From a virus: a DNA stretch of 64,000 nt. The notes beneath the pieces were generated by a model. The model did no database searches and was not told where the DNA came from. It worked only from the letters and a program-made list of their open reading frames with translations. The position numbers and the translations under genes are program-made. Location: IMG/VR virus record IMGVR_UViG_3300031521_001337, positions 124,001-188,000 of that record; one strand, 5' to 3'. Shown in pieces: positions 5,708-64,000 of the stretch (position 1 is its first letter; each line of letters begins with the position of its first letter).

Positions 5708-6415
5708 ATGCCTAATGAATTAAACCAATTTGCAACATTCAAACCTATAGAAATAGCTAATGACTCTCGAGCACAAGAAGCTAGACAATATTATCAAGAT
5801 AATGGACTTGTTCCAGACAATCCTTTTATGACTAAATTTTTAGATCAAGCTACTACTACACAATCAATTCCTAATATCTCTACACCTAGTAAAGATACCG
5901 ATATAGCTGCGTTATTAGTTAATAAATTAACTAAAGTTCCAATGTCTACTCCTGAAAAAGCATTAAATGATATTAATGTTAATGCTTCTGTTTTTACACC
6001 AAAAGTATCTGTTTCTCAAAAAGCTAAAGAAGCAATTAAATTCTTTATGGGTAAAGGTTATACTAAAGAAGTAGCTTCTGGTATTACTGGTAATCTATAT
6101 GCAGAATCAGGTTTAAATCATATGCGACCTCAAAATAATGGCGGTCCAGGATTTGGTTTAGCTCAATGAGAAGGACCAAGACAAGCGGATTTTAAACGCA
6201 TTATGGGTAAAGATGTACATTCATCTACAGCACAAGATCAATTAGAGTTTATTAATTGAGAATTAAATAATACACAAAAGCATGCAAAAGCAGCTATATT
6301 ACAAGCTAAATCTCCAGCAGAAGCAGCTTATGCATTTGCTAATAAATATGAACGTATGAAGAAATATAATAAAGAACGTGAATCTTACGCTAATACTTTT
6401 TACACAACTAAATAA
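5708..6415 (+). CDS. Phage-lysozyme-type endolysin or virion lysozyme (TGA read as Trp)
   Basis: Reading TGA as Trp gives 235 residues. The first ~100 residues are a Pro/Thr-rich extended region. The C-terminal half matches phage tail-lysozyme domains: AIKFFMGKGYTKEVASGITG, then NLYAESGLNH with the likely catalytic Glu, then GFGLAQW. The Trp of GLAQW is the first TGA (6167-6169); a second TGA (6257-6259) gives INW. With the standard code the domain would be cut in half. It probably cleaves peptidoglycan for lysis or entry. It is on the + strand with its own promoter and terminator, apart from the early operon, so it probably belongs to the late class. Confidence 0.88.
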
Positions 6416-6421
6416 AACAAG

Positions 6422-6459
6422 AAAATCCCCTAGCCTTAACGGTTAGGGGATTTTTTTTT
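6422..6459. terminator. Bidirectional terminator between convergent operons
   Basis: The stem AATCCCCTAGCC / GGTTAGGGGATT (one G-T pair) with a TTAA-C loop is flanked by A-run and T-run, so it can end transcription from both sides. It begins seven bases after the lysozyme stop, and the stop codon of the leftmost late gene lies in its T-run. Confidence 0.92.
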
Positions 6460-9400
6460 ACTTTCTATCAACAGTTGGTAAGATTTCCATCATATTTCAA
6501 TTACCTCTTAAAAACGTAACTAAATCAGATTTACCTGCAAGTACACTCTTAAAATCGGTCATAGTATTAGTCATAATTGAAGCAAAAGCTGGTTCTCAAC
6601 TTAATGCTCCAAATACACCACCAAATGGATCAAACTCCCCAAAACTCTTCATACCTACTTTAGTAGCTAGTTGTTCGTATTGAGACATTTCTTTCATTGG
6701 TTTCATACCATCTTCTCCTTTAGACATTAATATATGTCCTAATCAAATCATCATCATAGCGATTAATAAATCATGTAACGCAACTTTAGCATTAGCTAAT
6801 CTTTGAGGATCAGTATTCTTTAAATCACCAGTAGCAAGAGCTCTAATAGTTAAACCTAATGAATACATTAAACCTTCACTAGGAGAACCAATTCAAGCAT
6901 TAGCAGGAATAATAGGATCTTTAGAACCTAATTGATCTTTAGTTACTTCTTGCATTTCATAATTACCTTGTTCATCAATTACAGGTTTACCATTTTCATC
7001 AGTAGTCATTTTTTGATAATATAGAATTTTATTTCCATTATCATCAATTGTAAACTTTTGACCCATATAACCTCTAGGAGATTTTTGATCAGGTTTACCA
7101 AAATAATATTTAACTTTAGATGGTCAGAATGTTAAGAATTGTCCAAAAATAATACCCATTGCAGTATGTTTAATCAAAGGTGACATATCTTGATCATAAA
7201 ATCCATAAGCCATATCAGAAAAATTCTTAATACTACCACGTTCTTTAGATGTGTATGCTGATGGAATATTATCTTTTTCAGTTAAAAGTTTTTCACCAAA
7301 CGAAGAATTCTCACCATTAAACTCGTCAATTATAGTTAAATACAAACTACGTTGTTTATTGTATAATTCATCAGATGCATTATATTGATATCCATTAGCT
7401 TCGCGATTTTTAAAATAATGAGCATATCTTTTATCTTTAGAAGGATCATATTGTAGTTGTCCTTCTGAATTTAAACTATGTGCATCATAACAACCATCAT
7501 GAATCATTTTTGCAAATAATAAGGATAGTCGATTTACATAATCTGGTGCAGTATTGAATCAATACATATTTTCACCCAAGAAGTTAAATCCGAATTTATC
7601 AACTTTCTTTCTATCAACAATGTGATTTAAATCTTGATTAGCAAAACGCATTTCTAAGTTGATAGCTTCATTTAAGGCATATGTTTCTTTATTAGGATCT
7701 AATACTAATTTATAAGCTTTTGCAAGATGATCTCCATTAAAACTATCATCTCCATAAATTTTACTTCATGCATAAGATGTATTCTTAACTGTTCCAACAA
7801 GTAACTCTTTAATTAATAATGCAGGTCTTAATGAAATTGCCATTAAACTCGATATTTTTTGTACCTTTTTAATAACAGCTAATGCTTCTGCACCTTCTTT
7901 ATCAGCTACTAACGATTGACCATATACAGCAGTTTTCATTTGATTAAAGAAATCTTCAAGAGCTTCTGTAAGTTCTTTAGTCTTTCCTGAACTTCATCCG
8001 TGAAACTTCATTACTGTTAATGCAGAATGTATATTAGGAAGTACTGTATTAAAGTGTTTTTCTCTAATATTTTCAAAAGCATATTTTAAACCAATAACAT
8101 CTAAGTTTACTTCAAAAGCATTTACTCCATATTTTTCAATTAAACTTAATCTATAATTGTCATTAGTATTTTTAAATTGATTATACATACGTTTAAATCC
8201 ATTAACTGATTCATAAGATTCAACACGTTGTTCTTCTGTAATATCTCTAGGATCTAATAAACCTTTAGTATCATCTCAGAATTTACCAACAGTTTTTCTA
8301 AAACCATCTGTAGTAATTGATTTTCATTTACTTAAACTCATTTTCTTAACAAGTGGAGCTTTAAATAAATCAGATCCAATAGATGTTCATTCACTAAAGT
8401 TTTCGTGCTTTTTAAATTCTTCTAATGTTTCAATATTGTATTTATTTATAGGACTATATTTAAACATATTGAATACTACTGTTTCTAAATAAGCTCTTTG
8501 AGGATTATCAAGATTAGATTTAAGATCTCATGGATTTTTAAATCTAAAATCATTATCAATAACACCATTATGTTGTTCAAAGAAAACTTTGTGATATTGA
8601 TCAGCATCTCCAATAATTATTTTTTGAAGAGTAGAACGACCTATTGCTTCATAGTATTTATTAGTTGCACTTACAATTGAAGCAGATTCTTTATTAAATT
8701 CAGAAGCAATTTTGTTATGTGCAATGGTAATCATACCGTGTAAACGAGTCATAGCTTGTGATTGTAGAGCATCGGCAGTATTGAAATGTTGACCTTGAAA
8801 TAAACCTACAATCTTATTACCATTCTTATCATATTCTGGAGATGTTCCCATAACCATAGTTCTAATTCAATCAGTAGCATCACCAATTCTAATTCCATAT
8901 CTAGGAGTTGCATAATCAAATGTATCATTTAAATTAGTGTAATATGATACACCTAATGATACAAGATAGTATATATAATTCAAAGGGTCTGAGAAATCTT
9001 GAATTTCAGTTTGGTCTTTATTTTGAAGACTGTTTCCATATTTATCAAGAAGTTCATTTCTAAACTTTAAAAACCATTGTAATTTATCATTAGCTGTAGA
9101 CATTTCTTCATCATCTTGACGATATGAAGCAATTGTTGTTTTTAACGCAGAATTATCAATATTACCAGCTTTAGATAAAATTTCACCTCATATGGTTTTC
9201 ATCATATCAGATGCTTTTAAATTTCCTGTTTTAAAATTGTTTTTAAAATCAGATTTAACTTTTACAATTTCATCACCTAATAAATTAAAATTATGAATAG
9301 CTTTATCAATTGGAATAAAATCCGCTTTATCACTGAATCAGTTATATACAGATACATTATTAATTGTTGAACCTTTTAAGTTATCAGTTAAAGCATTTAA

Positions 9401-11128
9401 TACTGTCAAAGCTTTCATTATTTCAATATTAGCTGTACTTGCTGTAAGTATTCTACTATCATTAGCTAATGATTTATTAGGTTTAAATTTACCTAAAATA
9501 GTATTACCTCTAGTAAATTCATTAACTTGATCTAAAGCATTAATAGTAATTGCAATAGCTTCTACACTTCGAGTATTAATGTTTCTAAATAATAATACAC
9601 CAGCATGAGATAATTCAGGAATTGAATTTTCATCATTTACTATTTCCCATTCAGGTGTTAAATATTTATTAAGTACTCTTTGCATTTGAATTGGAGCTTC
9701 CTTACCATTAATAAGAATTCCATGTTCTTTATTTTTAGCAGCTTTAAATGACTTAACAAGGTCATTCATTTTACTATCTTTAGCATTAGTCCATTTTGTT
9801 ACATAATCTTCAACTTTAGCTTGAAATCTTTCTTCCCAACCTAGTTTAGTTTTATCTTCTTCAATCCTTTCAGTATTTAAATTATTTACAATATAAATCT
9901 TAGCTTGACCTTCTGAACGAGCAATAGCCTCTTTAACTAAATTTTCAACAGATTTACCTTTTGTTTTAGTTTTATAATCATAAGCAGGAAATGCAATCTT
10001 ACAAGTATCAACAATTTCAGAATCTAAATCAGTAGTAGATAAATGATCCCTTTTGATTTTAGAAGGAATAAGAGTTCTTAAATCATTACTCATATTACCT
10101 GAATTATATTCTAATCCTGATGATGAATTTGATCTGTCTGAAATTTCTTCTAATGTAATAGCGTTAGGATTTATTTCAATATTATTACCTTTTTTAGGAA
10201 CAATTAATTGTAGTATATTTAAAGAAGATTGAGCTGTATCAACATAACTATCTAACAACTGACGTTTTATTCCTAAAATATAATCAGTTTCTAATTTCTT
10301 AGATGAATCCCAATCAGAATATTTATTTCTTGAAACTTTAATTTCATATAAATTAGGAATTCCTTTATCATCAATTTCTAATACATGAATATTTCCATTC
10401 ATATGATTAGCAGTACTGTTTACAGATTGACCTATTTTAATAATACTATTAGACGATTGCATTTTTCTACCTCAAACAATTAAATCATTTTTAAGTGTAG
10501 CAATCGCTATTTTGTAATTGTCTAAATTAAATTCTTTTTTCTCAAAGTTAGACGTTCCATCTAATTTATCAAATTCTTTAGATGCAAATTGATTATAATT
10601 ATGAATCTCTTTCATAAGATTCTCTAAATACATATCAATATCTTTATCCTTATATAATTTACCAGCATCAGATAAAGCCAATCTTACAAGATTAGAACCA
10701 ATTTTACTCATTTCCATCATTCTATTATCAAGAGATAAATTTAAATTAACTCTTGCCATTAGAACAGCAGCAGATTCATTAGGATATTTAACTTTTAATA
10801 AAGCTAATTGATTCTTTTTAAAATTTGCTTCAATAAATTCGGGGGAGAGTAATTTCTCTTCCCCGTTTATATTATGTGTAAGTTTTATAAAACTATAAGG
10901 TGTTAATCCATCAGATACTTTAGGATCGATATTTGATTTTGCTGTATTATCTTCTAACACATTTAAAGTTAAGTCTTGTAAAGATTGGGTTAGTGTATCT
11001 TCAGATCTACTGTGTTTTACACCCACTTCTTTATCCAGATTGTTCTTAACAAAATCTGTTAGTTCTTTATCCGAATTAAAAGTTGCATTAAATCCGTCTA
11101 TATTTAAATAGTATTTACATTTATCCAT
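6458..11128 (-). CDS. Giant virion-cargo type protein with nuclease-like domain (TGA=Trp)
   Basis: 1,556 residues when TGA is Trp; I found no in-frame TAA or TAG in any gap between the standard-code fragments. Residues about 245-264 (GNIH, then IDDKG, then YEIKVS) resemble the core of a PD-(D/E)xK nuclease, but the first acidic residue is His (GNIH instead of GxxD), so it may be inactive. Near residue 1460 is a hydrophobic stretch (LLIAMMMIWLGHIL). It is the most distal gene of the late block and starts at ATG 11128 after an in-frame TAA. By position it resembles the giant proteins that crAss-like phages package with their RNA polymerase; the exact role is unknown. Confidence 0.82.
10840..10865 (-). 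other. GC-rich stem-loop inside the 1,556-aa gene
   Basis: CGGGGGAGAG and CTCTTCCCCG form a ten-position stem (one non-Watson-Crick position) with a six-base loop, about 265-290 bases downstream of the start codon. It stands out in an A+T-rich coding region. Confidence 0.7.
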
Positions 11129-11139
11129 TTTATTTTATT

Positions 11140-14100
11140 TTAATAACTGCAATCTTGTATCAGTTGATCATTTTTTATTAATTGTTTTATCTTTCCTGAT
11201 ACATTAAACATTTCAAATGCGTTTGTAGTATCAATTAATCCATCTTCTGCACCTATTAATTTAGAACCAAACTGAGTCATTATACTATCAATTGGTTGAC
11301 CTAATAAATCTATTGAATCTTCTCATTTTAAATCAGCATCTAAATTTAATAAATCAGATATTGATTTTTTAATAGATTCATTAAATACTTTCTCAGTAAA
11401 TAATTCATCAGGTTTAATATTGCTTTTAACTGTCATTGTTAATAATTTAACAAAAGTTTCCTCTAATTTATCAGCATTTATATCTCCATTATAACTCTTA
11501 GATATTTCTGAAAACATAGGATGATATTGTACTGAATTCACAATTCTATAATAAGAATCAGAATCATTACTTTTCATTGTAGCTAATACTAAATGTAGAA
11601 TCTCGTGTAATGGTTCTTCCATTCCAGCTTTATCAACATTTACATAAACTCCACCTTCATAAACAAATGCCGCAGAATTATTTACATCTAAATGTGTAAA
11701 GTCTTTTAAATCATCATTTGTAATAATATTGATCGGAACTCCGAATTTATTTTGAAGAACATCAATCATAGCGTTAACTATTTCAACTGAATCAGATTTA
11801 CTGTAAGCAGTAACATATGAACTCTTAGAAGGATTACTTTGAGTAACAACATCTTTAACTTTTTCAAAATTATCGGTTGCTCATTTTGGTAAAAACAATT
11901 GTTTTATATTAGTAGCATCTACTCCAATAAAAAATCGTTCTGCTTTAACATGATTTATTTTACTATCGTCTCCAACATTAGGAATATTTGAATAATGATA
12001 TGCAGAAACTAATAGTTTATCTCCAATCATTTTCTCAACAATAAAAGGTTTAGCGTTTCCTTCTACAAGTAAATAAGAACCTGGAACTATATATTGAAAT
12101 ACTTTATCAAAACTTGTATTATCCAATGCAATTTTTACTGTATTAAAATCATCTTTTAATATACCTTTTTGTCCATTAATAGGATTACCTTCATACATAT
12201 AAAGTTTATCGGGAATTGAATTTCATTTATAGCGTTCAGCTAAAGACTCTTTATATTTCTGTGTAATATCTATATCAGATGATTCGTATTTAGATTCAGA
12301 TATAGGTCTACTATAAACATAACCTGTTTTACTTTGATAAACTTTAACTTCTTGACTATTAGTATTAGTTATATTAGGAGTGTTTCCAAGTTTAAATCTG
12401 TTTTTAATTATTCAACCTTGAGCAAAAGATTCATTTTGTGATTTATTACTCAATAATAAATATCTTGATAAATTTAAATCTGATGTAGCTACATCAATAT
12501 AACGATTAACTCCTCCAAACTCAGATGATGTTTTAATATGATCATAAGCTGATTCAAGTACTTTTAATACATTACCAGTTGAAGTATCATATATAAAATC
12601 ATCTTTATTAATTGTAGATTGACTATTAATTTGCTCTATAGAAAATTCTGAATTTTTAAAAGCTCCATGATTATTTTTCTTTGGACTAAGAAATATTTCT
12701 TGCATGTTATCTAATATCTTACCATTTGAATCTGTTTTAAACACATCACTAATTGATTGTTTAACACTAACCTTTTCAGTAGCTGATATAACATGATCAA
12801 TACTTGGAGAAGTTACATATTTAATACTATTTTCCATAACATATTTTACAGTATTGTTCTTAGTTAAATAATATACAATTTTCTTATCTCCTGCATCAGA
12901 TTGACTAGTACCATGAGCTAATACAATAGCATCAACAAGTTTATCATCTTCTTTAACAAGAACGTGTGCACCATTCATTACTCCAAATTGTACAGGTTGT
13001 CAAGCATCATTATTTTCAATTTCTGAAATCGTATGACTTTTAAATGTATTTGTATCAACATCTGTTCCGATTGAAAAGTTTTTAATATCACTTACTGGAA
13101 CTTGTTCTCCATTAACAGTTAACATAGAACCATTTATTTCAGAAATTTCTCTATACGTTTTACTTCTTCCAACTTTTACTTTAACTCTACCAGATTTAAT
13201 TAAATCAAGCATAGTACCTCACTTAACTTTACTAAATTTATTTATAGATAATTCAGATTCAGTTTTACTTGATTTGTATACAGGTTTAATTGTAGTATCA
13301 TCAACTTTTCTAGAATATATATAATCTGATTTAAGTAATGATTTACGTGTTGTTAATCCATCCCCACCTGAAATTGTAGTAATAACTTTATTACCATCAG
13401 TATCTACTTTATAATCAAAAAAGATTTCATAAATAGTTTTATCTCCAAATTTAACTCCAATTAAATCACCTTGTCTAAGATTTTTAATTAGAGTTTTTTC
13501 AGCAGGTTGATAATAATAATCACGATTTTCTTTTAATACTTTAGTTTCAAAGTTAGATTTTATAGTGTAAGCTGAATCTCTTGTATTTATTAAATCTGAT
13601 ACACCGTTAACATCTATAGTATTTTTATAAGATGCTTCATTATAAACAAATAATAATTTACTAAGTAATTTAGATTTATCTCCAAATCCTGGATTAATTA
13701 TATTATTTAATATCTCAGTTCTTTGTGCATCAGTACCAGTTCTAAGAGTTTCAGAGTTTTTAATGTAATTATCATTATCGTATAAATTTAATGCCAACTC
13801 AGTTAAAGCCATTATCTTATTTTGTTCATCATAAGCATAATTTAGATTTAAAAATATATGACCTTTATGAAATTGAGTTTTTACGTTTTCATTTGCAATT
13901 CCAGCAATAACCATTTTAGAGGTCCATGATGGTTTAGGAATATTAAGTCCTTGCATTAATTTAATTACATTCTTATCTTTAATCAACTCCGCAGGGCTGT
14001 AAAGCCCCACGGAATTTTCATTAATGTTTGTAAGTTCAATATTCTCAATTGAATCAAATTGTGGAAGCATTTCCATAATTGATTTAAGTTCATCCAAACT

Positions 14101-14208
14101 TCTACCTGATAATAATTTTTTAATTTCATTAATATCAGTAACAGGTTTTTCAACTGAACCTAAATTATATTTCTTACCTCCAACGTTAAGTATTATTTCA
14201 CAACTCAT
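11140..14208 (-). CDS. Giant late protein with zincin-like metallopeptidase motif (TGA=Trp)
   Basis: 1,022 residues. The zinc-protease motif HEILH is at residues 868-872, preceded by GGVYVNVDKAG and followed by a hydrophobic stretch, as in zincin-like metallopeptidases predicted in crAss-like giant proteins. It could process virion proteins or act on host targets after injection; neither is shown. The start ATG shares one base with the stop of the RNA polymerase gene (TAATG), so translation is probably coupled. TGA codons at 11323, 11881, 12412, 13000 and 13219 (low coordinates) are read as Trp. No signal peptide is seen. Confidence 0.85.
13988..14013 (-). other. GC-rich stem-loop inside the zincin gene
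   Basis: TCCG-CA-GGGCT and AGCCC-CA-CGGA form a nine-pair stem with a small internal loop and a GTAA loop, about 195-220 bases into the gene. Confidence 0.6.
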
Positions 14209-17200
14209 TATTTATTACATTTAGTTTCTAATACACCATTTATAGATGTTAGACTATTTAAAATTTGTTTTTCTAAATTCTTTCTTTCCTCACTAGCAAT
14301 TTCAGATTCATCTAAAGAGTCTAATAAAGTATAATATCTATTCTTAACAGAATCAACAATATCAACTGGATTTTCAATATCAGACATATCTTGAGATCTA
14401 GCTACAGATTTTTGTTCTAAATCTCTCTTTCCAAATATCTGTAAATATAATACATGTCTAAAATCTTTATCAGTTTTAATTCTATCCATTAATTTTGGGA
14501 TTAGATTTTTATCTAAGTCCATCATCCTTTGGAATTCTACGAATTTTCTTGAGAAAGTGTTAGGATTTTCCATATCTTGTGAGAAAAATATAGTTGCTCT
14601 ATTTCCACCAAATCGTCCTTCGTTGACTAAATGATTATACAAATATAGTAAATCTAAAGCTCTAATATTCTCAGAATTGTACTTATTTGATCCAGGATCA
14701 GTCTGAGATACTTTGATATTTAAATTATATTTATCATCACGATTTTCATTAAATAAATTGAGACCATGTTGAATCTTAGTCATTATTTTATGATTTGATT
14801 TATCATCATAGAATTTAATCTGACGTTGCATATTGAATATTTTATTGTTTCCAAACTTATAATCTTTTAAGAAGTTATTACTCTTAAATTTAGATTTAAG
14901 TGAATTAATTAAATAATTCTCCATAATATATTTGTATTGTGCTAATCCAAATTCAGTTCCAAGATCAATAATTCTATAAGGAGTATTTAAAGATTCTTCT
15001 TTAGTATCAGGATCTGTACTTAATTTAATTTCAGAAGTACTAATCCTTTGTTTATCAGGATCGAGTATATTCATCTCTTTTATATTTAAGTATTTCATGA
15101 TTTGAACAATGTCTAATTGTAAATTTAAATTTTTAAGCCATTCTTGTGATACATAATTATCATAAGCATCACCTGCTCCAGATAGTACTTTTTCTCTAAG
15201 TTGTACAGAATTATCGATATTTGACATTGCTCTTGTTTGTTTAACAATATCTTTATGGTCTAATTCACCATTATCTCTACCTATATCAACTAAAGCATGA
15301 GTAAAATCAGTAACGAAAGCATATTTATTAATATCAGTTCTCATTGTTTTTTCACTATAATTAAATGATTTCAACATTCCATTAAAGTGAGGTAACTTAT
15401 TTACAACATCTAATACATTGAATGTATATTTCAATAAATTATAATAACCTGTAACAGCTTCAAAATATCTTGGTTCTGTTGTAATAGGATGATCCATACT
15501 TTCGTAATAACGATTGATATCAACTCCACCAAATACAATTCCAGCTAATACAGCATCAGATAATCTTCCTTTAATATAACCTTCTGATAAATGAGGTTTG
15601 TCAGTTTTAATTATTCTAACTAACTCAGGTAATAAAGTTTTATTAAATTCTTTAAGTATTAAAGTTTGTTCAGATGAAGATGCTTCATTTCATTGTTTTT
15701 TAACATTATTTAAATCCGTTTTAACTTCTTCAAATATTGTATTTTGTTGAGATGTAACAACTGAATTAATTTTTCTAACAATATTATATATATCAATTTC
15801 AGAAGCTTTAATACCTTGATTAGCAGATAGTAATCCACCCAAAGTTTTAAGTTCTTTAGAATAGTTATAAATTTTAATAAACTCATCAAAATAAGCTTTA
15901 TTAATTCCAGCTTTAGCAGGATTAAGTTTTCCTAATTGTGCATCAATTGATGAACTTTTACCAGATTTAAAGAAGTCTTCTTGTAAAGCAGCTTTAATTT
16001 TTAACGCATCATCACTAGTCATAAATTTACCAATAAGTGCTTCATCCATTCCTAATACTAACATATAAATATGCATTGAAGCAAAATCTATACCAGCATT
16101 AATTTTAGCTAACATTAACTCTTTAGCATTATCAGTTGCAAGAGATAATAAAGCAGATATATTTAAAGCCGGATCATTTTCATCAAGAACTTTAGATAAC
16201 TCTAATTTCTCTTCATCGTTAAATAAAGATCCATCTTTCTTAGTTAGATTAACTTCTTTAAGATTTTTATATACAATATCTTCTAAAGTTTTAGTTGCTT
16301 TTTCTGTTAAGTTTAATCCTCCAATCTTTTTAAGATTGTAGTTCTTACCTAAAATATGAAAGTTTCTACTAAAGAATTCATTATCTTCTGATGTTACTTC
16401 ACCATTATAATAATTAGAATAATATGTAACTAAAGCAAAATAATCTTTAAGTCCTGTAGCAGCAGCTCCAATTACTTTTTTACCTACAGCATTTTGTTCT
16501 TGTTGTAAGAATGTTGTATGACCATCATAATTACTTAAAGCATAAGAACCATCAATTTTCTTACCAATTTCTGTATACTTACCAAATGAGATTGGAGAAT
16601 AAGATGCAACTTGATTTCTAGGACTAGTACTTAATGCAATTAACTTATTAACTACAAAGTTTTTAAATCCATTTTCATTATTGTATTTATTATGTTTAGA
16701 TAATTGTTTAATAAATTTATCAGCAATTAAATCATTTTCACTATCAATATATTTAATTTCAGGATGATCTTTCAAATAGTTATAAATATCAGCTCTTTCT
16801 TTTAATCTAAATGGATTCATGGTTGTAGGAATAACAAATGTTTCGCCTTCAAACTTTCCTCTAGTATATTCCTTTCCATTAGGTGCAGGAAGTCTTAAAG
16901 AATCTCTAACGTTATCATCAGATGAGAAATCAAAGAATGGTGATCATTTTTCAAAAGAACCATTTCTATAATCATACATCATCATATAAACTTTATCAAT
17001 ATCAAAGTCAGAACCTTGTAACCATAATTGTCAGTGAGATACAAATGCATTATTCAAGTGTTCTTGAGTATATGCTACAGTATTCATAGACATAAATGAT
17101 TGATAAGCTTGTGCAGGAATACGAGCACTTAATGATAGATTAGACATTTTCCATGAATTAAACATAGTATTTTTCAAGTTAAACACATAACTGTCTTTAG

Positions 17201-44680: not shown

Positions 44681-44681
44681 T

Positions 44682-54082: not shown

Positions 54083-55513
54083 CTAAACTTCTTCAATAAT
54101 GAATGATTTATAAGGAGCGAATGCTGCAATACCAGAGTATCCTGCAACGATCAATTTAGATCCTGCGATTGGAGAACTAACGATACCACTAGTGATACCA
54201 TCTACACCACCAACACCTGGATATTTAGATGTTACAAATTCTGCACCTTCTAATGTAAATGCTGCGATAGCTGGTTGATTTGTTGAAACGTCAGGTGACA
54301 TATCAAGACAAATACCGTATCCTTTTCTATCATATTCTTTAGTAAGAGCACGATCAACCATGAATGTTACCATATTACCGGCAATTTCATAAGAAGTGAA
54401 AGTTCCACCAACTTTGATAGGATTATCAGCTTTAACCATTGATTGAGCTGCTTTAGAATACATCATTGTTGGAGTTGATCCCCACAATTTCAACCAGTCT
54501 CCTAAAGTAGAGTTAATTTGACCCCAAAGTCTATCATTAACAATAAATGTGTAACTGTTACCAATTGCATTTGCTGCTTTTTGATTCATTTGATCAATTA
54601 CTGTATTGATGATGTTTACATTCAATTTAGCATATTTATACTTAGATGCAAATCTTTCGATTTGAGGAATAAGACCATCACCCGCGATAAGTGGACGACC
54701 ATCTTCTGTAAGTACAGTAGATTTACCATTAACATCCATAGTTGTTTTTCCCCATAGTAAGTGGTTATTTTTAACTGTTTGGAAGTTTTCAAACAAATCT
54801 TTTTCCATTTTGTTTAACTTAAAGATCTTTTCTTTCAAGTCTCCAGCTCCATCTCCTGATGCAATTTTGATAAATTGATCTTCCATTTGAGCATAACGAG
54901 AAGAGTAAGAAATGTCATTTCTATGTTCTGTGATCCATTGACGATGTTTTTCAATGTTTGATTGATACTTAGTATAACCTTCTTCATGGTACTCAGGCAT
55001 AATATTAGATAAGAAACGAGTTGTTCCACCTACTTGACATGCTGAAGCATCAAGAATTGAAGAGAAATCTGCATCAATTAATTGAACCGTATATTCCCAG
55101 AATACATCTGCTTTTCTTTGTGGGGTTGCTTTAACAATACATTGCTGACGCGATCCGTCAATTTTGAATGTATCATATTTTTCATAATATCTTTCTTTGA
55201 AATACATTATGATATCTGCACCACCTGCACCAGTACCCGTTGGTGCTGCTGCGAATTCAACTCTTTTTACGAATTCTACATCAATTTCCCATTCTACCAT
55301 TAAGGTATTAAGTGGTTGAAATTTATTAGCTGTTTTAGAGTTGTAATAAATGTTCATTAAGGCTTCTGTTAAGAAAGTCGCTGTATTATGTGTATACATG
55401 CGAGCCATAACTCCCATCATTTTAGGACGAGTTCCTAAAAGTTTGTAGAAATCCTCATAGGTTCTACTGTGTGCCAATTCTGGCTTTACGTTAACGTAAC
55501 TTGCTACTACCAT
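54083..55513 (-). CDS. Probable major capsid protein
   Basis: 476 residues, one uninterrupted frame ending in TAG. All seven Trp codons are TGG; there is no TGA. The N terminus MVVASYVNVKPELAHSRTYE and the C-terminal Gly-rich segment (KYPGVGGVDGITSGIVSSP, then YSGIAAFAPYKSFIIEE) resemble crAss-like capsid proteins. Length, the upstream acidic scaffold-like gene and a strong private terminator all support this role. A perfect 14-base palindrome (55486-55499) lies just inside the gene. Confidence 0.82.
   Translation of the reverse strand: MVVASYVNVKPELAHSRTYEDFYKLLGTRPKMMGVMARMYTHNTATFLTEALMNIYYNSKTANKFQPLNTLMVEWEIDVEFVKRVEFAAAPTGTGAGGADIIMYFKERYYEKYDTFKIDGSRQQCIVKATPQRKADVFWEYTVQLIDADFSSILDASACQVGGTTRFLSNIMPEYHEEGYTKYQSNIEKHRQWITEHRNDISYSSRYAQMEDQFIKIASGDGAGDLKEKIFKLNKMEKDLFENFQTVKNNHLLWGKTTMDVNGKSTVLTEDGRPLIAGDGLIPQIERFASKYKYAKLNVNIINTVIDQMNQKAANAIGNSYTFIVNDRLWGQINSTLGDWLKLWGSTPTMMYSKAAQSMVKADNPIKVGGTFTSYEIAGNMVTFMVDRALTKEYDRKGYGICLDMSPDVSTNQPAIAAFTLEGAEFVTSKYPGVGGVDGITSGIVSSPIAGSKLIVAGYSGIAAFAPYKSFIIEEV
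55486..55499. repeat. 14-base perfect palindrome TTACGTTAACGTAA
   Basis: A self-complementary 14-mer within codons 5-10 of the capsid gene. It could be a protein-binding site or chance; it encodes Tyr-Val-Asn-Val-Lys without strain. Confidence 0.6.
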
Positions 55514-55527
55514 TGTAATCTAATTTT

Positions 55528-56526
55528 TTAAAAATTTAAGTCGTAAATGCTATTTTGTGTTTTGCCGGAAGGATTATTCCTAATAACGGCGGGTTTTGGT
55601 TTTATCTGTGATTTAAGTTTTGCTATCTCCGACTCATATGCATTCTTCAATGCATCGAATGAATCTTTTCCGTAACGTGAAAACCAAGCAAGTTCATATA
55701 ATTTTTTTGGATCATTTAAACTTTTATAAAACTCACTGGTTCCATTTTCGTCTAAATCCAAAATCTGTGAAAGTACTTCATTTTTTTCATCATCATCTAA
55801 CTCTATTCCGTAGAATTCTGGCGTTTGCAATGCCACATTAACCATAGTTTCAGAAAATTGGTTAAATTGTTCTTCTCTTTCGGTTTCAGCTTCTTGCTTT
55901 TGAGCTTCGTTATATTGATCTTCTAGTTGTTTATATTCTGTTCTAAGCACACCTACTTTTTTAGTAAATAATGCCTCATCTTGTAATTCTTTTTCTAATT
56001 CTCTAGCTAATTCTTCTTCGGTTAAATCATACTTTTGTTTTAAGTCTAATAAGAATAATTCTTGATCATCGTAAGAATCAATACTATATTCAGATGCAGC
56101 TCCTTGTGTAAATTCTTTAATTACTGAAGTTTTATATGCTTCAAGGAATTCTTCAACTGTTAAATTTTCACCTCTAATTTGATTAATAAGTTCAATTTCT
56201 TCATCATCTAAATCGTGATCTACAGGTTCTTGTTCTGGATCAGCAGCTTTTAAAATTTCTAATTGTTCTTCTTCTGTCAAATCATAGAAATCAATTTCTT
56301 GTTCATTATCGTTTTCATCCAAAACACTAATTTTAGAATTTTCAATTCCAAGTGTTTTAAGATATTTATTTAAAATAAACTCTTCGGTATCAGGTCCTTC
56401 GCTTTTTTCTGCAAAAAAGTCATCGACATCATCTCCAGGAATATCTAATTGTATTTCGGGTTCGTGTTGGGGGTTATCGGGCAAAAGATCGCCTTCAAAA
56501 AGTTCATCAAATTCATCCATATTCAT
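55528..56526 (-). CDS. Acidic scaffold-like protein upstream of the capsid gene
   Basis: 332 residues, strongly Asp/Glu-rich in the first ~120, then long helices with heptad-like patterns (ELEKELQDEALFTKKVGVLR, KQLEDQ/EAQKQEAE) and a basic tail (KPKPAVIRNNPSGKTQ). An acidic, helical protein just before the capsid gene is the usual form of a phage scaffolding or assembly protein. There are 14 bases between it and the capsid gene. No TGA codons. Confidence 0.72.
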   Translation of the reverse strand: MNMDEFDELFEGDLLPDNPQHEPEIQLDIPGDDVDDFFAEKSEGPDTEEFILNKYLKTLGIENSKISVLDENDNEQEIDFYDLTEEEQLEILKAADPEQEPVDHDLDDEEIELINQIRGENLTVEEFLEAYKTSVIKEFTQGAASEYSIDSYDDQELFLLDLKQKYDLTEEELARELEKELQDEALFTKKVGVLRTEYKQLEDQYNEAQKQEAETEREEQFNQFSETMVNVALQTPEFYGIELDDDEKNEVLSQILDLDENGTSEFYKSLNDPKKLYELAWFSRYGKDSFDALKNAYESEIAKLKSQIKPKPAVIRNNPSGKTQNSIYDLNF

Positions 56527-56618: not shown

Positions 56619-56691
56619 CCACCTTTATCAACAATAAAATATATAAACTATAAACTTTATTGAAAATAATTGTGGTAACTATTAAGATGCA

Positions 56692-57207: not shown

Positions 57208-57208
57208 T

Positions 57209-57493: not shown

Positions 57494-57518
57494 AATTTTA
57501 TTTTATTAATTTTTTATT

Positions 57519-58622
57519 TTATAATCCACCTTTAGCATAATGATATGTTCCACTATTTGTAGGAGATACTGAAAGTAATGTTAATCCAGTAAAATAACCT
57601 CCGATTATAGTACTAGTTGATTGAGATTGTCCTGATGATATTGTTAAATTAGCTCCTGATACATTAAATGATCTTCCTGCAGCAGCATCATAATAACTAT
57701 AATTAAATGTTATAGTAACATTTGTATTTACAACAACTGCACTCGGTGATCCTGCATATACTGAATACGCATACATTTTTCAATTTGTACCATCATATAA
57801 ATAATCTACATATATTTCAACATATGTATCATTAATTACATAATTATCTGCATAAGCTCAAGCATCATTATTATTGTAACTACAACAAGCTCCACTAGTT
57901 AAAGTAGATCATGTAGTATTATCAGTTACTATTGAAATATCATTTCCATTTCTATATTTAGTACCTCTTAAATTTGATGCCATTCATACTTGATTACCAA
58001 TTTTTACTGTCTTATAAGTATAACCACTATTATCAGTCATTATACCTGAATTAGTAGAATCATCTTTGATTAATCTAACTGAAGCACCTGTTGCAGATCC
58101 ACCACCTTCTAAACTAACTCATTCAGAATCATAATGCATATCCATCATAGTTGAAGTAGATAAATATAATCCAGTCTGTTTTATATATGCAAAATTTCCA
58201 GTATTATATCTAAATCCTCCGCCGACAGCAGCAAATTGATATATATCTGTAGCATTAGTATTTGGAGTTAACCAATGAGTTGTATTTGCTTCTTTCAATT
58301 TTCCACCACCTGTAGTTGTTCCTCCAATAGTTGAAACTAAAGTTTCTAATTCTGTTAAAGTTGGAACATGTCATCCACTTGGAGATATATTTCTAGAATC
58401 TAATACAGCATATGAATTATATAATCTACCATAACCACCATTAGGTAGTATGTGTTGATAGTTTCTAAAATTATATAAACTGTTTTTACTACCTACGTAG
58501 TTACTATCAAATGCACCAATAGCAGCGGAGAATAACTCAGTTAAACTCCTATTACTACTATCAGCATATATTTCAGTAACTACATCTCTTTGATTAAAAT
58601 GATCATTATCTGGAACTGACAT
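57519..58622 (-). CDS. Fibre protein with Fibrobacter-major-paralogous domain (TGA=Trp)
   Basis: 367 residues with TGA as Trp; no TAA/TAG in frame. The central region matches the Fibrobacter succinogenes major paralogous domain (PF09603): YGRLYNSYAV, then SPSGWHVPT (Trp84 is TGA), and later KIGNQVWMASNLR (Trp is TGA). This domain is common in surface proteins of Bacteroidota and in their phages' fibres. N- and C-terminal beta-rich parts (AYSVYAGSPSAVVVN) probably form the stalk or tip. Placed after the S74 fibre, it is likely a host-recognition protein. It overlaps the upstream gene by 17 bases. Confidence 0.85.
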
Positions 58623-61410
58623 ACTTTTCCTCCAATTGTTTTATTCTTGATTCAGCACTAGCAAGTTTTGCTATTATCAAGTCAATGTATTTTACTTTAT
58701 ATTCACCCTCTCTATTTCCAACTACAAATTCACTAAATCCATTAGATAATAAATCTTGAGCAATAGTACCAAATCTTAATTCTTCTAAGTTATTTTTAAA
58801 ATTAAATGAAACTAAATTGAGCCTACTATAGTCTTTAATGATTGGTTGAATATTAGTCTTTAAAGTTCTATCTGACGATAAAATAAAATTACTAGCAGTA
58901 ACATTACCATTGAAATGAGAATTATCACTTCCATCAATATAAAATGGAGTTGTACCATCGGAAGCATTTCTAATTGAAAATCCAGTGTTTGAAATTCCTT
59001 GTATTGAATTTTTAATATAGTATTGCTTAACTCCTGCTTGTGAACCTTGTAATTGTATTCTTGCCTCACCTCCAACATCATTTCTAATTAGCACAGCACT
59101 TTTGTTAATTAGAGCAATATCACCTGTTCCACTTTCAGCACTAATATATACTGCATTGCCAGTAAACTGTAAGTAACCTTGTCTAACTGTATTTGCTGAA
59201 TTATAACCACTCAAATAAGCGGCATCAGCAATCATTTTTATTCCCTCACCTGCATAAGTATTAACAGTTCCAGTTGCCATTAAAGTACCATTCACTGCCA
59301 ACTTATACCCTTGGTCAGAAATATATCCAATCCCAGTATTACCATTAGGGCTAATATAAAACCTCCCAATATCGGGTACTGTATTAGCACTTTGGGTTGA
59401 TTGAGTAGTAATTGCAAAATCTCCATAAGACTGATAATCTGTATGTATGAACCATTTCCTAGAACTACCATTAGATACATTATGGTCAAATGATAACATT
59501 CCTACCCAACCTGAACCGCTAGGCAATGATAATCTTCCGTTAATTCCCATCCCACCATTAAGAACTAATGCTCCTGTTGATGGTGATAGTGATTGAGTTG
59601 TGTTTGGTATACTTACTACTCCATTACTTTCAATAGTCAATAAGGGAGTAGTTGCATAATTAAAAGTAAAGGCTTTGTTTCCCCACTGTCCAACAGAATT
59701 AAAAATCATTGACCCATAATTATCTCCACTACTAATAAAATAGTCAAAAGAAGAACCTGAACCAAATTTTAATTTACCTGAATAATTATTAGATGGTATA
59801 TTAATAGCAAAATAATCACCTCTAGCTGATGCATTTGTCCCATCATCACTTATCAAACTATTTACAAAATTACTCCCATTCCATTTAGGAATGTAGTTTG
59901 TTGATAAACTTGATAAATCTTGTGTAGCAATATTATTTACGCCAATAAAATTTCTAATTTGAGTACTAGTAGCAGGACTCATTCTAGCATTAGGGGCATC
60001 GTATACCATTACATAACTTACCGTAGACGCAAAATCAGCGCCATAGTATTTTAAACCATTTACCATTTCAGCATTCAAATTCCCCACCATAGTAGTAGAA
60101 TTTACAGTTAATGGTGCTGTTCCAGTTGCTACTGTTGATTGTAGTTGAGTTGCATTTACTGTAGAAGTAAAAGTTACTGCTCCTGTTTTACTTAACCTAA
60201 ATCTTTCTGTATAAGTATGTGCAATAGCTTCTGTATTGTATGCTCTAGCATCAGAATAATCAATTACTAAATCAGTACCACTTCCACTGTATTTGTTGGC
60301 AATTCTATAAACTCTTTGGTCAGTTCCACCATCGGCATATAAGTACATAGCACTACCATAATCAGAATCCAATGCTCTTAATTCAACACTATGATATGTT
60401 ACACCAAATTTGCCTTTTCCATACGCTGTAACATCCCCACTAATCCACATATTTGCAGATTGTGCAGAGCTATTTTGGTTTAATATGTGGTCGTTATTGT
60501 TGGTATAAGCCGATGAACCTAGACCTAACCAAGATTGTATTTGATTTTGTGTAAAATTATAAACATATCCGTTAGAGTAACCTCCTAGTAAATTAGTAGG
60601 TACGGATTGATTAGCAGTTCCATTATATACTGTTCCTAGTGTTATACTAGAGCCTAAAGTCCCACTAGAAGATACAAAGTCTCCAGTGTTACTACTGGCT
60701 GCTGAACCGAATGTTCTAGTAGGTAGTGGAGTATAACCTAAAGCAGTAGTAACCATTCCTGAGTTGATACCAGTTATCCATCCACCGTAGTTACCAAGAT
60801 TATTATTAAATTGACTGAGATTAGTAGGTCTTGCTGCTGTCAATGCATAAGGTGCTAAACTACTTGCAGTTATAAAACCATTTGGATTAGTTGAATTATA
60901 AGGTACATATCCCAAAGCATTAGTAACAAGTGTTGAACTAATTTGTGTTAATGCTCCATTCTCAACACCAATCAATCTATTATTCATTTGATTGATTGTG
61001 TAGGCATTGAATGTATCAGTTAATGTTGCATTACTGAAAGAACCACCTAAATTAGCATAACCGAATACTGTTTGTATTAGTCCACCAGATCCAGAACCAC
61101 CAGAAGTAACACCAAATGCACAAACTTCACCTTTAACAGATAAATTACCATTACTATCTAAAGTCATTAAATCAGTGAATGTTCCATCTGTATTAACAGT
61201 TGAAAAATTTCAACCATTATCGGTTAACAAATAATTAGAAAGTGGTAATTTTATCACACCATTAGCACCAGCCAAATTAGTTGACTGTGCTACTAATGAT
61301 AAATAATTAAGTGGTACATAAGCACTACCAGAACCACCAGAACTATAATTATTAATAGCAGTAGTTGTTGAACCTCTTTGTAAGGCTATATTTTTACTTT
61401 GAAATTCCAT
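58606..61410 (-). CDS. Tail fibre with C-terminal Peptidase_S74 chaperone domain
   Basis: 934 residues. The long N-terminal and central part has fibre-like repeats (ALGYVPYN, ALGYTPLP, SGTLGSSITLG) typical of trimeric beta-rich tail fibres. The last ~75 residues are an intramolecular chaperone, with the self-cleavage region SSDRTLKTNIQ and FGTIAQDLL, and a terminal coiled coil (AKLASAESRIKQLEEKY). The domain folds the trimer and is then cut off. Only one Trp codon is TGA (61210-61212, NGWNFS); the other seven are TGG, unlike most late genes, which may mean recent arrival from a standard-code source. Confidence 0.88.
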
Positions 61411-61437
61411 TTTATTATTGTTTTACTGTTGTTTCTG

Positions 61438-63552
61438 TTATTTCTTTGATACTATATTCAATAGATTAGTATCATTTTTTATATCTATACTCATACCATC
61501 AACAATAAATTTTTCAGTTGGAAAAATACTATTTATTGTTAGTAATGAATACGGTTTAAATATATTAGCCAGCGTTATATTTAGTTTTTTGGCTGGTGTT
61601 GAATACTGATTCACATAAGACTGGATAATGTTGTATTCTTGTTTCTGGTCAATTCCTAAAGCCTTTGTTTTGATACTTTGATTGTATGTATAATCTGTAC
61701 CTATTTTTTGAATAACAGATGAATAATTCAATCCTTTATTTGTATCACTACATACTTTTAAATTCATATCAGAAAATTCATTTACAAACGCTGTATTGAT
61801 TACGTTTTTATATTCTGTATCTGTTTCCGCTTTTTTCTCACTTGTAGGTTTAACTAACTTGATGTCAAAATCTTTCAATCATACAGCACCACAAGTACCA
61901 CCCTTATATATTTCAGATGGTTCATATAATGAAAACTCAATATCACCGAATAACATATCTGCCTTTTTAATGGTTATTTTATTACCAACTTCATTTATAA
62001 ATGCTGTTGTATCAACTTCGTTTAATATGTTTTTCCAGTTGTTATAAAGATGTCCATCTTTGTATTCAAACTTAATTGGGAAAGTCATTTCAATATTAGT
62101 TCAATACTTTTGATAACCGTTCCAGTATTTATTTCCGATCTTTAATTTTGCATATAATAATACGTAAGTTGATAAATAATAATCACCTGTAGATGCTTTT
62201 TTACTTTCATCTATATAAGCTACATTAACCGCTGAATCCCAATAAGCAGAGCCACTAATTATTAAATAGTAATCATCATAAAAATAACTACCCTCATTGC
62301 TTGATGAATATTTCAGTACAACATTATTTGTACAGTCAAGCCAAGTTTGTAAAGGTAATGCGCCAGTTGGTGCAACATATCCAGACCTATAAAGACAAAC
62401 ATAATCAGAGAAACTAACAGAAGAACTTAATGCTACATTATTTTCATAGTTTGCCATTCTTACAAAGGATGCACCCTCTTTAGTTGATATTGTATCATAA
62501 TCAAGTTCGGTTAATTCAGACCAAGTACCACCAGTTTTATTATATGTTTTGTATTTATCATTTTTGAAATATTTAAACACATAGTTCTTACTTCCATAAG
62601 TTTTAGGAATAGAAGAAAACCAGTTTGTTGTTCCTGTTACTTTTGTAATGTTGGTTAGATCATCATCAGAAAAAAACTCTGGTATCAAACTATCATTTGT
62701 GCTTACACTGGTTTTAATGCTTACTTGATTATAAACCTCAGCTAATTCAATACTAGCACCATTCGATTTAAAACTTTCATTTGTAACATCTACTGTATTA
62801 CTTAATGTTGTGTAGCCAGTTGAATAATTCAACCAATTGTTTGCAGTAGTATAGGTATGATAGTTTACAAATCCACCTTTTATATAATCATAGTTCAATA
62901 TATAAACCTCATCACCATCTGCTACAATTGTATAGTTTAGGAATTGAAGAAGCTGTGTTAGTACTTCTTTGTATGTTATTGCTTCGTTATCATCAAAGAA
63001 ATTTTGCTCAGCTACGAGTAATTTATCTATGATTTTTTGATCTTCAAAGCCCGGTAAATAGTTGTTTTCATTCACGTATATTTTAGAATAGCAATTACAC
63101 TTTTTGATGATATGAATCAATAAATCTTCAAAGCTTTTTATCTTTCTGTTTACCAGATCAACCGTTTCAAATTTGTAATTGTCTAATGTACTCAAACCAT
63201 CTATTGCTTCAAGTTCAATACTTTCATAATGTTGTTCAAAGCCTTGTGTATATATGTTTGGTGTCAAGTAACCAACTCATTTAATCAGATTATTATCAAC
63301 ATCTTTCAAAGTCATTTTAGTACCTTGTGCAGTTGCTGAATAAAGGTTGAAATTGTAACTATCAGATATAATTGTACAAGTTGCATTTGATAATTTCAAC
63401 GGTTCGTAAATTGTACTATTTGTATTTAATTCGATTTTAAATGGTTCATCTGAGAAAATAATCTCAGATGTTCCACTATTACCATCATTCACATTTATAT
63501 CCACTTGATATAAAGTGTTACTTATATTTTTAAATTGTCCTGTGTAAATCAT
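61438..63552 (-). CDS. Large tail protein, distal-tail/baseplate-like (TGA=Trp)
   Basis: 704 residues after joining fragments through TGA at 63277, 62101 and 61879. N-terminal ~90 residues are beta-rich (MIYTGQFKNISNTLYQVDIN), then KWVGYLTPNIYTQGFEQHYE and SIELEAIDGLSTL, a pattern I associate with tail proteins of Bacteroidota siphophage-type prophages that follow the tape-measure gene. It starts two bases before the stop of the tape-measure-like gene and precedes the fibre gene. Seven Trp codons are TGG, three are TGA. An inverted repeat is at 63447-63470. Confidence 0.75.
63447..63470 (-). other. Perfect stem-loop inside the 704-aa tail gene
   Basis: CATCTGAGA and TCTCAGATG form a nine-pair stem with a six-base loop, 82-106 bases from the start codon. 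Confidence 0.7.
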
Positions 63553-63553
63553 A

Positions 63554-64000
63554 TTACTTTGCTTTGCTTTTTATATTATCATAGTTAGTTAGAACGCCTT
63601 TTAAATTCTTTCCCTCAATAATAAATTTTACTTCACTATTATTTGTTGTAGTTCAATTTATACCACCTTGACCATTTAAAAGAGCAAATAGTGTACTTTG
63701 TTGACCTTGATTTAATATCATTTCACCAGCATTTACTCTAGCTAGTATTTTATCACCAGAAATAGAACCACCTTGTACAATACCACCGTTTGCAAACTTT
63801 GGAATACTTGAAGCTAATATAGCACCTTGCATTACTCCAATTTGAGCCAATGCTAAACCTTCACCTACAAAGGGAATAAAAGCATAAGCTGCTGCTGTTT
63901 CTGCTGCCATAAGTCCAGTATAAGAAGCTGTTTCTGCAACATTGGTTGCAATTTTAGCTGCTGCTGTTCCCGCTTCAATTCCTGCTTGTGTTTGTTTTGC
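63554..64000 (-). CDS. Tape-measure-like tail protein, C-terminal end (gene continues past the window)
   Basis: The last 148 residues are visible. Ala-rich helices (GIEAGTAAAKIATNVAETAS) lead to the typical C-terminal signature of tail tape-measure proteins, FANGGIVQGG, then SGDKILARVNAGEMILNQGQ. One TGA (63653) is Trp in GGINWTTT, extending the protein by 32 residues to TAA at 63554. Tape-measure proteins set tail length in long-tailed phages. The bulk of the gene, needed for certainty, is outside the window. Confidence 0.72.

Follow-up and report, generated by a model that had tools for sequence, protein, structure and literature searches.

The 64,000 nucleotides analysed here (the window; positions 124,001 to 188,000 of IMG/VR virus record IMGVR_UViG_3300031521_001337) hold long reading frames that are repeatedly broken by TGA, which raises the question of what this codon means to the phage that carries it. 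The late virion genes are those of a large crAss-like phage, and in them the UGA stop is very probably read as tryptophan, with a matching tRNA that the phage itself encodes. The reading that assigns the window to the late arm of such a phage, of about 176.6 kb by coordinates, with UGA reassigned to tryptophan for the late genes, is given a probability of about 0.94.

Late reading frames and the phage they belong to

The end of the early/middle arm occupies 1-5404 on the plus strand and includes a Thy1-like gene (3994-5127, plus strand). Its seven table-11 ORFs of at least 90 aa contain 21 TGG codons and stop at TAA six times and at TGA once; this lone TGA stands at codon 239 in a table-4 frame of 241 codons and probably does terminate translation. 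A phage lysozyme-like gene at 5708-6415 (plus strand, 235 aa; Pfam Phage_lysozyme2, E 1.3e-31, residues 105-233) does need TGA as a sense codon, with in-frame TGAs at codons 154 and 184, both inside the domain.

Long ORFs emerge on the minus strand once TGA is taken as a sense codon, and the 24 late ORFs of 6458-58622 hold 94 in-frame TGA and 57 TGG codons and are all closed by TAA or TAG. The longest run free of TAA and TAG in this region is 2,985 codons, against a mean of 136 and a maximum of 241 in 50 first-order Markov copies of it. That the broken frames run on over long spans, as the initial annotation had it, is seen best in the ORF at 14208-23162 (2,984 codons; 12 TGA, 11 TGG), which like those at 6458-11128 (1,556 aa; 16 TGA, 5 TGG), 11140-14208 (1,022 aa; 6 and 1), 31626-33479 (617 aa; 5 and 1) and 33479-37387 (1,302 aa; 4 and 7), all on the minus strand, has no PHROG or Pfam match. 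The second longest (23170-31617, minus strand, 2,815 codons; 7 TGA, 11 TGG) has a helicase-type AAA_30 domain at residues 1722-1920, and PHROG and Pfam gave no polymerase family match in the giant late ORFs that would point to virion RNA polymerase subunits. The TGAs recur in other contigs and are thus not sequencing noise: all 16 of ORF 6458-11128 are kept in both other contigs compared, which are near-identical, and all 11 of ORF 40421-44680 in each of five.

The annotation went too far in placing TGA throughout the late genes, since 19 of the 24 ORFs have at least one and five have none (37763-38341, 49848-50930, 50960-52078, 54083-55513 and 55528-56526, minus strand), and the capsid gene avoids TGA across relatives. 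It had also named four motifs with tryptophan at TGA. In the 26 ORFs searched GWHVPT and NQVWMA are present with TGA as the W, both in a Fib_succ_major-domain protein (57519-58622, minus strand, 367 aa; 6 TGA, 1 TGG), whilst neither GLAQW nor AKKW was found with its W.

The suggestion that the phage is crAss-like was right. Its terminase large subunit (TerL) matches PHROG 6681 (1.8e-70) and its portal PHROG 6547 (4.1e-51), the muzzle protein (40421-44680, minus strand, 1,419 aa; 11 TGA, 5 TGG) matches Pfam crAss_MUZ (7.1e-20) and has relatives at 41-64% identity, and the major capsid protein (MCP; 54083-55513, minus strand, 476 aa; 0 TGA, 7 TGG) is of the Crassvirus type (Pfam Crass_capsid, E 8.1e-13; no PHROG match). 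TerL matches were found in 128 phage records, of which the nine annotated ones that were opened are all Crassvirales; the record has no match to Pfam PF04466, a terminase family. Genes for helicase, primase and exonuclease lie on the plus strand and virion genes on the minus strand, and two oppositely oriented arms, for replication and structure, are a Crassvirales criterion in the accessible part of PMC10136315. A phage outside this group had been suggested when PHROG searches with 25 window proteins left the giant late genes and the capsid protein without a match, until Pfam and the TerL search overturned it.

Reading UGA as tryptophan in late genes with a UCA tRNA is already published for crAss-like phages, in the portions available of Yutin et al. 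2021 (PMC7886860) and of the report on the zeta-group phage Lera (PMC12386605). The phages of those portions share with this one the Crassvirales hallmark genes, TGA as tryptophan mostly in late structural and lysis genes and a UCA suppressor tRNA, and Lera has a similarly large tRNA set (26, against 25 that ARAGORN gave here over the stretches read). The description of the TGA-dependent gene set as unusually complete was too strong, as Lera is credited in the same partial text with 41 ORFs containing TGA. The phage described here differs in its probable Paludibacter host, and its MCP is only 50.7% identical to that of MT835470, the closest phage record found in GenBank. The code-15 crAss-like phages cr115_1 and cr52_1 (Suoliviridae), which read TAG as glutamine, likewise have a reassigned stop codon within a homologous terminase (in-frame TAG in seven of nine annotated TerLs compared), but codon, amino acid and tRNA are all different.

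The amino acid at UGA and the tRNA that may read it

Alignment to relatives, proposed at the outset as a check, indicates that TGA columns are mostly tryptophan columns. Using six divergent loci out of 14 fetched, tryptophan stands in 101 of the 133 cells that face a TGA of the window (59 as TGA, 42 as TGG), followed by phenylalanine with 7 and tyrosine with 6; the control, columns of TGG in the window, gave tryptophan in 67 of 92. The ten TGAs of TerL, seven of them inside the PHROG match at 41-657, were also compared with ten distant terminases that contain no in-frame TGA, nine of them annotated as Crassvirales and one unclassified. These have tryptophan in 19 of 88 cells at the TGA columns against 106 of 6,269 overall (P=6e-16), although phenylalanine is commoner there (25 of 88).

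The phenylalanine could be taken to mean that TGA encodes another amino acid, such as Phe, Arg, Gly or Cys, and the UCA tRNA of Lera is typed as Trp or Arg in the part of PMC12386605 available. Such a reading is highly improbable, as tryptophan dominates in the nearer relatives (42 of 74 cells other than TGA) and TGA columns behave as TGG columns do. Relatives without in-frame TGA of the siphovirus that is joined to this phage in the record (see below) have tryptophan in 89 of 150 cells, with 17 of 17 at TerL 275 and 10 of 10 at MCP 186, and the anticodon loop and G73 of the UCA tRNA resemble those of host tRNA-Trp. We infer tryptophan at UGA, and likewise the efficiency of UGA decoding discussed below.

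The UCA-anticodon tRNA that the annotation said should be looked for is present in the same record, outside the window, at 30015-30087 of the record (G000; minus strand). It scores 62.9 bits, has the loop CTTCAAA, an A1-U72 pair, G73 and Trp-like features, and lies on the late-gene strand, apart from the cluster formed by the other 24 tRNAs. A 172-kb relative (G008) also encodes a UCA tRNA on its late-gene strand, with G1-C72 instead of A1-U72 as first pair. A comparison with 112 ARAGORN entries from host and phages gave no clear parent for either, as the best scores were 17 (a Cys tRNA) for the G000 tRNA and 13.5 (an Arg tRNA) for that of G008, against 23 between the two. The record has no match to PF00472 or PF00579, the families of RF-1-type release factors and of tryptophanyl-tRNA synthetase. 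Early genes use mostly TGG (13 TGA to 199 TGG, against 129 to 65 in late genes, P=1e-40, in the stretches sampled), and the minus-strand genes around the UCA tRNA at 20.8-34.2 kb are mixed, with 12 TGA and 30 TGG under code 4. Some of these latter ORFs are perhaps overlong or false.

It is possible to picture how the two codes might follow one another during infection. Host RF2 would at first still terminate at UGA, so that the early genes, which avoid UGA, could be made and the late genes could not. The UCA tRNA, which precedes the late genes on their own strand, would then accumulate, be charged by the host tryptophanyl-tRNA synthetase, as its features suggest, and compete with RF2, with the result that late proteins might be completed only late in infection. 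UAA and UAG would remain stops throughout by means of RF1.

It could be supposed instead that TGA remains a normal stop that is read through now and then, the short pieces being the main products and the long forms minor extensions. Two RF-1-family genes and some TGA stops in the likely host make termination at UGA possible, and the avoidance of TGA in the capsid gene suggests a sense codon of less than full efficiency. This supposition is very improbable, given up to 16 TGAs in one ORF, TGAs inside conserved domains (both of those in the lysozyme-like gene, seven of the ten in TerL) and a dedicated UCA tRNA in two diverged phages. The open frames, this tRNA and the Trp-rich TGA columns thus uphold TGA as tryptophan with TAA and TAG as stops.

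The tail-fibre repeat, a probable second phage and the likely host

The Fib_succ_major gene is the last before a tail-fibre repeat of 1,948 bp (58881-60828), which is also found at 6236-8183 of G000 with one mismatch and, over 1,945 bases, at 211542-213486. The repeat has 649 codons with no TGA and seven TGG, and is the junction between two phages. From here to its right-hand end the window probably belongs, in part, to a second phage, and the record is probably a chimera of the crAss-like phage and a temperate siphovirus joined at the repeat. The tail-fibre-like ORF that spans it, 934 aa as it stands in the record (58606-61410, minus strand), would then be a probable hybrid of the two phages' fibres; another ORF with this repeat (G000:5892-10631) has a Peptidase_S74 chaperone domain at its end. 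The second phage's stretch, 60829-64000 (minus strand), takes in the fibre ORF's end, a 704-aa ORF without family match (61438-63552, minus strand; 3 TGA, 7 TGG) and the sequence from 63554 onward, beside the siphovirus tape-measure gene. Two siphovirus contigs, L084 (100%) and L092 (98.5%), also contain this stretch.

A nested prophage was the first idea for the siphovirus, but the contig arrangements around the repeat made an assembly join likelier. It is unlikely, too, that the 205-kb join is a real recombinant molecule, a cointegrate, even though the order siphovirus X, repeat, crAss Y is found in G000, 3300028734_000023 and 3300028650_000029 at 99.9-100%. In contig 3300028774_000070 the repeat leads from crAss late genes into crAss Y and the fibre gene is intact at 1,556 aa; X, a repeat-like segment and Z follow one another in a siphovirus relative (TerL 91%), and the stretch 1592-8180 is used twice in G000. 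Two contigs also end at window position 59007, 127 bases into the repeat, which would fit a branch in an assembly graph with k=127. An assembly chimera thus being the probable explanation, the record should be used with the warning that it probably joins two phages with a common tail-fibre segment.

The siphovirus also reads TGA as tryptophan in its head genes, as do TGA-reading temperate Bacteroidales siphoviruses such as a prophage in Paludibacter sp. LaCa_MAG_3. These resemble the crAss-like phage in that use and in a near-identical tail-fibre segment, and probably have the same host, but differ in their head genes, a TerL of PHROG 9 and an integrase; no tRNA was found in the siphovirus part of G000 or in the siphovirus L143. 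Within about 70% terminase identity this temperate family holds three codes (standard, TGA and TAG), and is good material for studying code switches.

The host is likely to be Paludibacter, with the crAss-like phage linked to it only by the shared tail-fibre segment. Two unrelated phages of one record that both use TGA as tryptophan might suggest that the host itself reads it so and the phage only follows. That is scarcely credible: the early arm of the crAss-like phage avoids TGA and the host looks standard-coded. The Paludibacter MAG has two PF00472 genes and a CCA tRNA-Trp, four of 40 ORFs in 60 kb end in TGA, and no UCA tRNA was seen in the 24 loci looked at directly out of its 46 tRNA matches.

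Uneven use of TGA between late genes

Whilst TGA as tryptophan is already known in crAss-like phages, its use here differs sharply and consistently between genes. The capsid gene has 6 TGA to 58 TGG over nine sequences (6 of 64 Trp codons), and the genes beside it are also TGA-poor, with 8 to 38 over 16 sequences in the adjoining 304-aa gene (53086-54000, minus strand) and 2 to 13 over 15 in the 332-aa gene upstream (55528-56526, minus strand). An Ig-domain structural protein (49848-50930, minus strand, 360 aa; PHROG 215, 4.1e-6), without any Trp codon in the window, has TGA at none of 18 Trp codons in 13 distinct sequences. In the same virion region the 339-aa gene (47391-48410, minus strand) is TGA-loaded, with 83 TGA to 11 TGG (83 of 94) over 14 distinct sequences, and the 234-aa gene (48410-49114, minus strand; 5 TGA, 0 TGG in the window) has 38 to 27 over 14 sequences.

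Profile searches of solved structures with five virion families gave nothing firm. Beside these five, the 360-aa family gave matches, at E 0.004 and weaker, to Ig-type C-terminal parts of a phage capsid protein and of other proteins, and the 234-aa protein matched crAss001 ring protein 1 very weakly (E 0.054, ranked behind three unrelated chains). The AlphaFold model of the 339-aa protein (mean pLDDT 76) has no PDB match below E 0.001, the predicted fold matching viral proteins without assigned function, of which a single crAss-like virus supplies two; the model of the 304-aa protein is poor (mean pLDDT 51).

Unevenness is also seen in cassettes with a putative receptor-binding role. In G008 four genes have 0 TGA and 36 TGG against 85 and 36 in the other late genes sampled (P=1e-15), and the counts are 0 and 16 in two genes of L213 and 0 and 15 in one gene of L229. 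It would be too simple to say that avoidance of TGA marks receptor-binding genes in general, as long genes of the same interval are rich in it (19 TGA to 2 TGG in L210, 18 to 3 in L225, 15 to 1 in L227).

As a tentative suggestion, which is perhaps less probable than not, UGA density may act as a conserved brake on translation, adjusted gene by gene, and in this way help to set virion stoichiometry. The capsid gene and neighbouring head genes, whose proteins would be needed in hundreds of copies, would be kept nearly free of UGA over long divergence and other late genes loaded with it, whilst receptor-binding cassettes might be UGA-free if recently traded between phages of different codes and UGA-rich if long resident. 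Among the titles and abstract openings listed by literature searches, neither a gene-by-gene or capsid pattern of TGA use nor a link between recoding and receptor-binding exchange is reported. If UGA is a costly sense codon, then its distribution shows in what amount each protein is required by the phage.

Genome layout, the joined siphovirus and the probable host

The IMG/VR record that holds the window (G000) is 213,486 bases long, with the window at its bases 124001-188000. The plus-strand genes as far as window position 5404 make up the last part of an early arm, and from 6458 rightward nearly all genes are on the minus strand; helicase, primase and exonuclease genes lie on the plus arm in the parts sampled outside the window. 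The major capsid protein (MCP; window 54083-55513, minus) matches Crass_capsid, the muzzle protein (40421-44680, minus) crAss_MUZ, TerL (G000:16116-18224) PHROG 6681 and the portal (G000:13701-15896) PHROG 6547, and on these sequence matches the phage is placed among the crAss-like phages. Its TerL is similar to terminases in 128 phage records, and the nine annotated ones that were opened are all Crassvirales. The giant late protein at window 23170-31617 has a helicase-type AAA_30/UvrD_C_2 region mid-protein, and homing and HNH endonuclease genes (46460-47404, 52169-53062, 38558-39205), which themselves contain TGA, are dispersed through the late arm. ORFs similar to these endonuclease genes interrupt the capsid gene in two loci of relatives (L225, L226).

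A 1,948-bp stretch of the tail-fibre ORF (window 58881-60828) is repeated at G000:6236-8183 with one mismatch, G000:1592-8180 is repeated at 206898-213486 (99.9%), and two near-identical contigs end 127 bases into the tail-fibre repeat. The other part of G000, about 28.7 kb with tape measure, capsid, portal, TerL and integrase genes, is by this gene content a temperate siphovirus. It is unlikely that the join of the two phages is a real recombinant, as although the order siphovirus, repeat, crAss genes is present in three records including G000, contig 3300028774_000070 passes from crAss late genes through the repeat to the crAss genes beyond it at 99.95-100%, with the fibre gene intact (1,556 aa). 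This order allows the crAss-like phage to be closed onto itself, with a length of about 176.6 kb. Across its 649 codons the repeat uses TGG 7 times and TGA 0 times; the fibre ORF G000:5892-10631 likewise has 6 TGA and 2 TGG N-terminally against 0 and 8 in its C-terminal part (P=0.007).

At the start of G000 is a bacterial hisB, and its protein shares 99% identity with the HisB of a Paludibacter MAG; a related TGA-reading prophage is found on a contig taken as the same as the hisB contig of the MAG, with about 18 kb between the prophage TerL and hisB. The MAG has two RF-1-family genes and a CCA tRNA-Trp, 4 of 40 ORFs in 60 kb end in TGA, and the 24 tRNA loci that were scanned, out of 46 matches, include no UCA tRNA. 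A Paludibacter host for the crAss-like phage is suggested by the shared fibre segment.

TGA as a very probable tryptophan codon

Under the standard code 41 of 56 ORFs (at least 90 aa) in the late stretches end in TGA and the strand is fragmented; with TGA as sense there are 34 ORFs, closed by TAA (32) or TAG (2), which bears out the initial annotation in its choice of stops. The longest open run is 2,985 codons, whereas none of 50 Markov copies exceeds 241, and the TGAs that were checked recur in near-identical contigs (16/16 in two contigs, 11/11 in five). The 24 late ORFs in the crAss part of the window have 94 TGA and 57 TGG among 16,874 codons, tryptophan being 0.89% of residues if TGA is so read. 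Late stretches hold 129 TGA and 65 TGG, the early arm 13 and 199 in 79 table-4 ORFs (Fisher P=1e-40), the early count covering 34.7-58, 75-93 and 106-129.4 kb of G000. Several of the 13 early TGAs are near the start or end of an ORF and may be true stops or overlong starts; early stops under table 11 are TAA 62, TAG 9 and TGA 7. A 172-kb relative (G008) is divided in much the same way over the four stretches that were read, though not everywhere: its plus-strand ORF 151987-152718, for example, contains 4 TGA.

That these codons stand for tryptophan was to be checked by alignment, and in divergent relatives the TGA columns are indeed mostly Trp. With window TGA masked as X, late proteins were compared with six loci (L039, L040, L041, L043, L044, L045; muzzle protein 41-64% identical), the other 8 of 14 fetched loci being dropped as near-identical to the window. 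Trp accounts for 101 of the 133 cells aligned, 59 of them TGA and 42 TGG, the remainder being chiefly Phe (7), Tyr (6) and Leu (5); for window TGG, the control, it is 67 of 92. For the crAss TerL, which contains ten TGAs in frame, the alignment used ten terminases that have none (MT835470 and nine annotated Crassvirales, seven of these with in-frame TAG). Trp occupies 19 of 88 cells at the TGA columns against 106 of 6,269 across all columns (P=6e-16), but Phe is commoner (25/88), nine of the ten terminases being below 30% identity. The siphovirus comparison is, as an alignment, the cleaner test: 17 of 40 relatives lack in-frame TGA, and 89 of their 150 cells hold Trp. TerL column 275 (17/17) and MCP column 186 (10/10) are fully Trp, whilst certain columns have other residues (portal 133, Trp in 0/16).

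In the Bacteroidales temperate siphovirus family (L031:5417-10001, L084-L123, L143-L149) the code differs between relatives: it is standard in some, has TGA as a sense codon in others, and has TAG as a sense codon in L113, whose record has a CTA tRNA, and in L146. A TerL tree with 43 rows requires 4 changes of the TGA label, and starred branches force 3 of these. Two TGA-reading siphovirus relatives (L126 and L127, in G015 and G014) have around 1501-1571 (minus) a 45.9-bit tRNA-like gene, with a loop readable by eye as UCA and a poor anticodon stem, that ARAGORN rejects; it was not seen in L031 or L143.

The UCA tRNA

A UCA-anticodon tRNA, proposed as something to look for elsewhere in the genome, is present as an isolated 73-nt gene called by ARAGORN at G000:30,015-30,087 (minus). 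Its features include A1-U72, G73 and a CTTCAAA loop, compared with A1-U72, G73 and CTCCAAA in the CCA tRNA-Trp of the probable host. G008 also has a minus-strand UCA tRNA apart from its tRNA set, with a similar gene downstream, and with G73 but G1-C72. G000 has 26 tRNA-like places, 24 above the Rfam threshold, and ARAGORN finds 24 plus-strand tRNAs at 76.6-88.8 kb that together serve all 20 amino acids, one of them a Trp tRNA with a CCA anticodon. Searches of G000 for RF-1-family (PF00472) and TrpRS-family (PF00579) genes found neither. The first ORF of the minus-strand arm starts at 34,187, the opposing plus arm begins at 34,749, and the UCA tRNA is about 4 kb into the minus arm with the TGA-rich late genes further along the same strand, a position from which it would be produced ahead of them.

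Rfam tRNA matches at G000:53952-54037 and 63692-63750 were not accepted by ARAGORN; by eye one has an anticodon-arm insertion and one lacks that arm. Odd phage tRNAs also occur at L029:7862-8123, namely an 82-nt Trp(CCA) whose variable loop is extended, a tRNA of 90 nt that reads as Tyr(ATA), and another for which the anticodon call has 2 bases.

Gene-specific use of TGA

The use of TGA throughout the late genes, as originally described, holds for most of them but not for the MCP and an Ig-domain gene, which avoid it. Among orthologues from relatives, kept if less than about 96% similar, TGA makes up 0 of 18 Trp codons in the Ig-domain gene (window 49848-50930, minus; 13 sequences), 6 of 64 in the MCP (9 sequences), 2 of 15 in a 332-aa gene (55528-56526, minus; 15 sequences) and 8 of 46 in a 304-aa gene (53086-54000, minus; 16 sequences). 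The share is 83 of 94 in a 339-aa gene (47391-48410, minus; 14 sequences), 36 of 46 in a 1,556-aa gene (6458-11128, minus; 2 sequences), 19 of 28 in TerL (2 sequences) and 47 of 74 in the muzzle gene (4 sequences), the remaining genes being intermediate (MCP versus the rest, P=5e-16, the cells not being independent). By column, TGG is invariant at five Trp positions of the MCP (6/6 aligned phages) and TGA at two positions of the 339-aa protein (7/7). Judged by these codon counts, the level of TGA use goes with the individual gene. The TGA-poor genes lie close together and the cause could be regional, but a 372-aa gene amongst them is mixed (5/9 TGA).

Within the TGA-rich late arm of G008, four adjacent genes upstream of the capsid gene (L082:4676-10598) have 0 TGA and 36 TGG, and three of them have Laminin_G_3 lectin domains. 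The predicted model of the 339-aa protein matches a viral protein of 393 aa and also, in the crAss-like virus ctYsL76, two short, separate proteins of 178 and 93 aa, as if annotation had divided one gene at its stop codons.

UGA-to-Trp reassignment, mostly in late genes and with suppressor tRNAs, is described for crAss-like phages (PMC7886860), and the phage Lera has the same combination as here, with 26 tRNAs and 41 TGA-containing ORFs (PMC12386605); the late recoding is thus a genuine finding of an ordinary kind. Among 73 phages with a predicted table 4 code, a survey detected UCA tRNAs in 11 (PMC11210395), and the delay of late proteins as the purpose of recoding is an idea already in the literature (PMC11210395, PMC12386605). 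Judged by titles and the starts of abstracts, no report of the gene-by-gene distribution of TGA was found.

The capsid of crAss001 has nine copies each of the major and auxiliary capsid proteins per asymmetric unit, and its ring proteins are dodecamers (PMC10172136); solved-structure profile and structure-model searches established no ring or auxiliary-protein identity for the genes here. Because of these copy numbers and the gene-specific use of TGA, we propose as a hypothesis that the suppressor tRNA would compete with RF2 at UGA, making its decoding costly, and that UGA may for this reason be kept out of the most abundant proteins.
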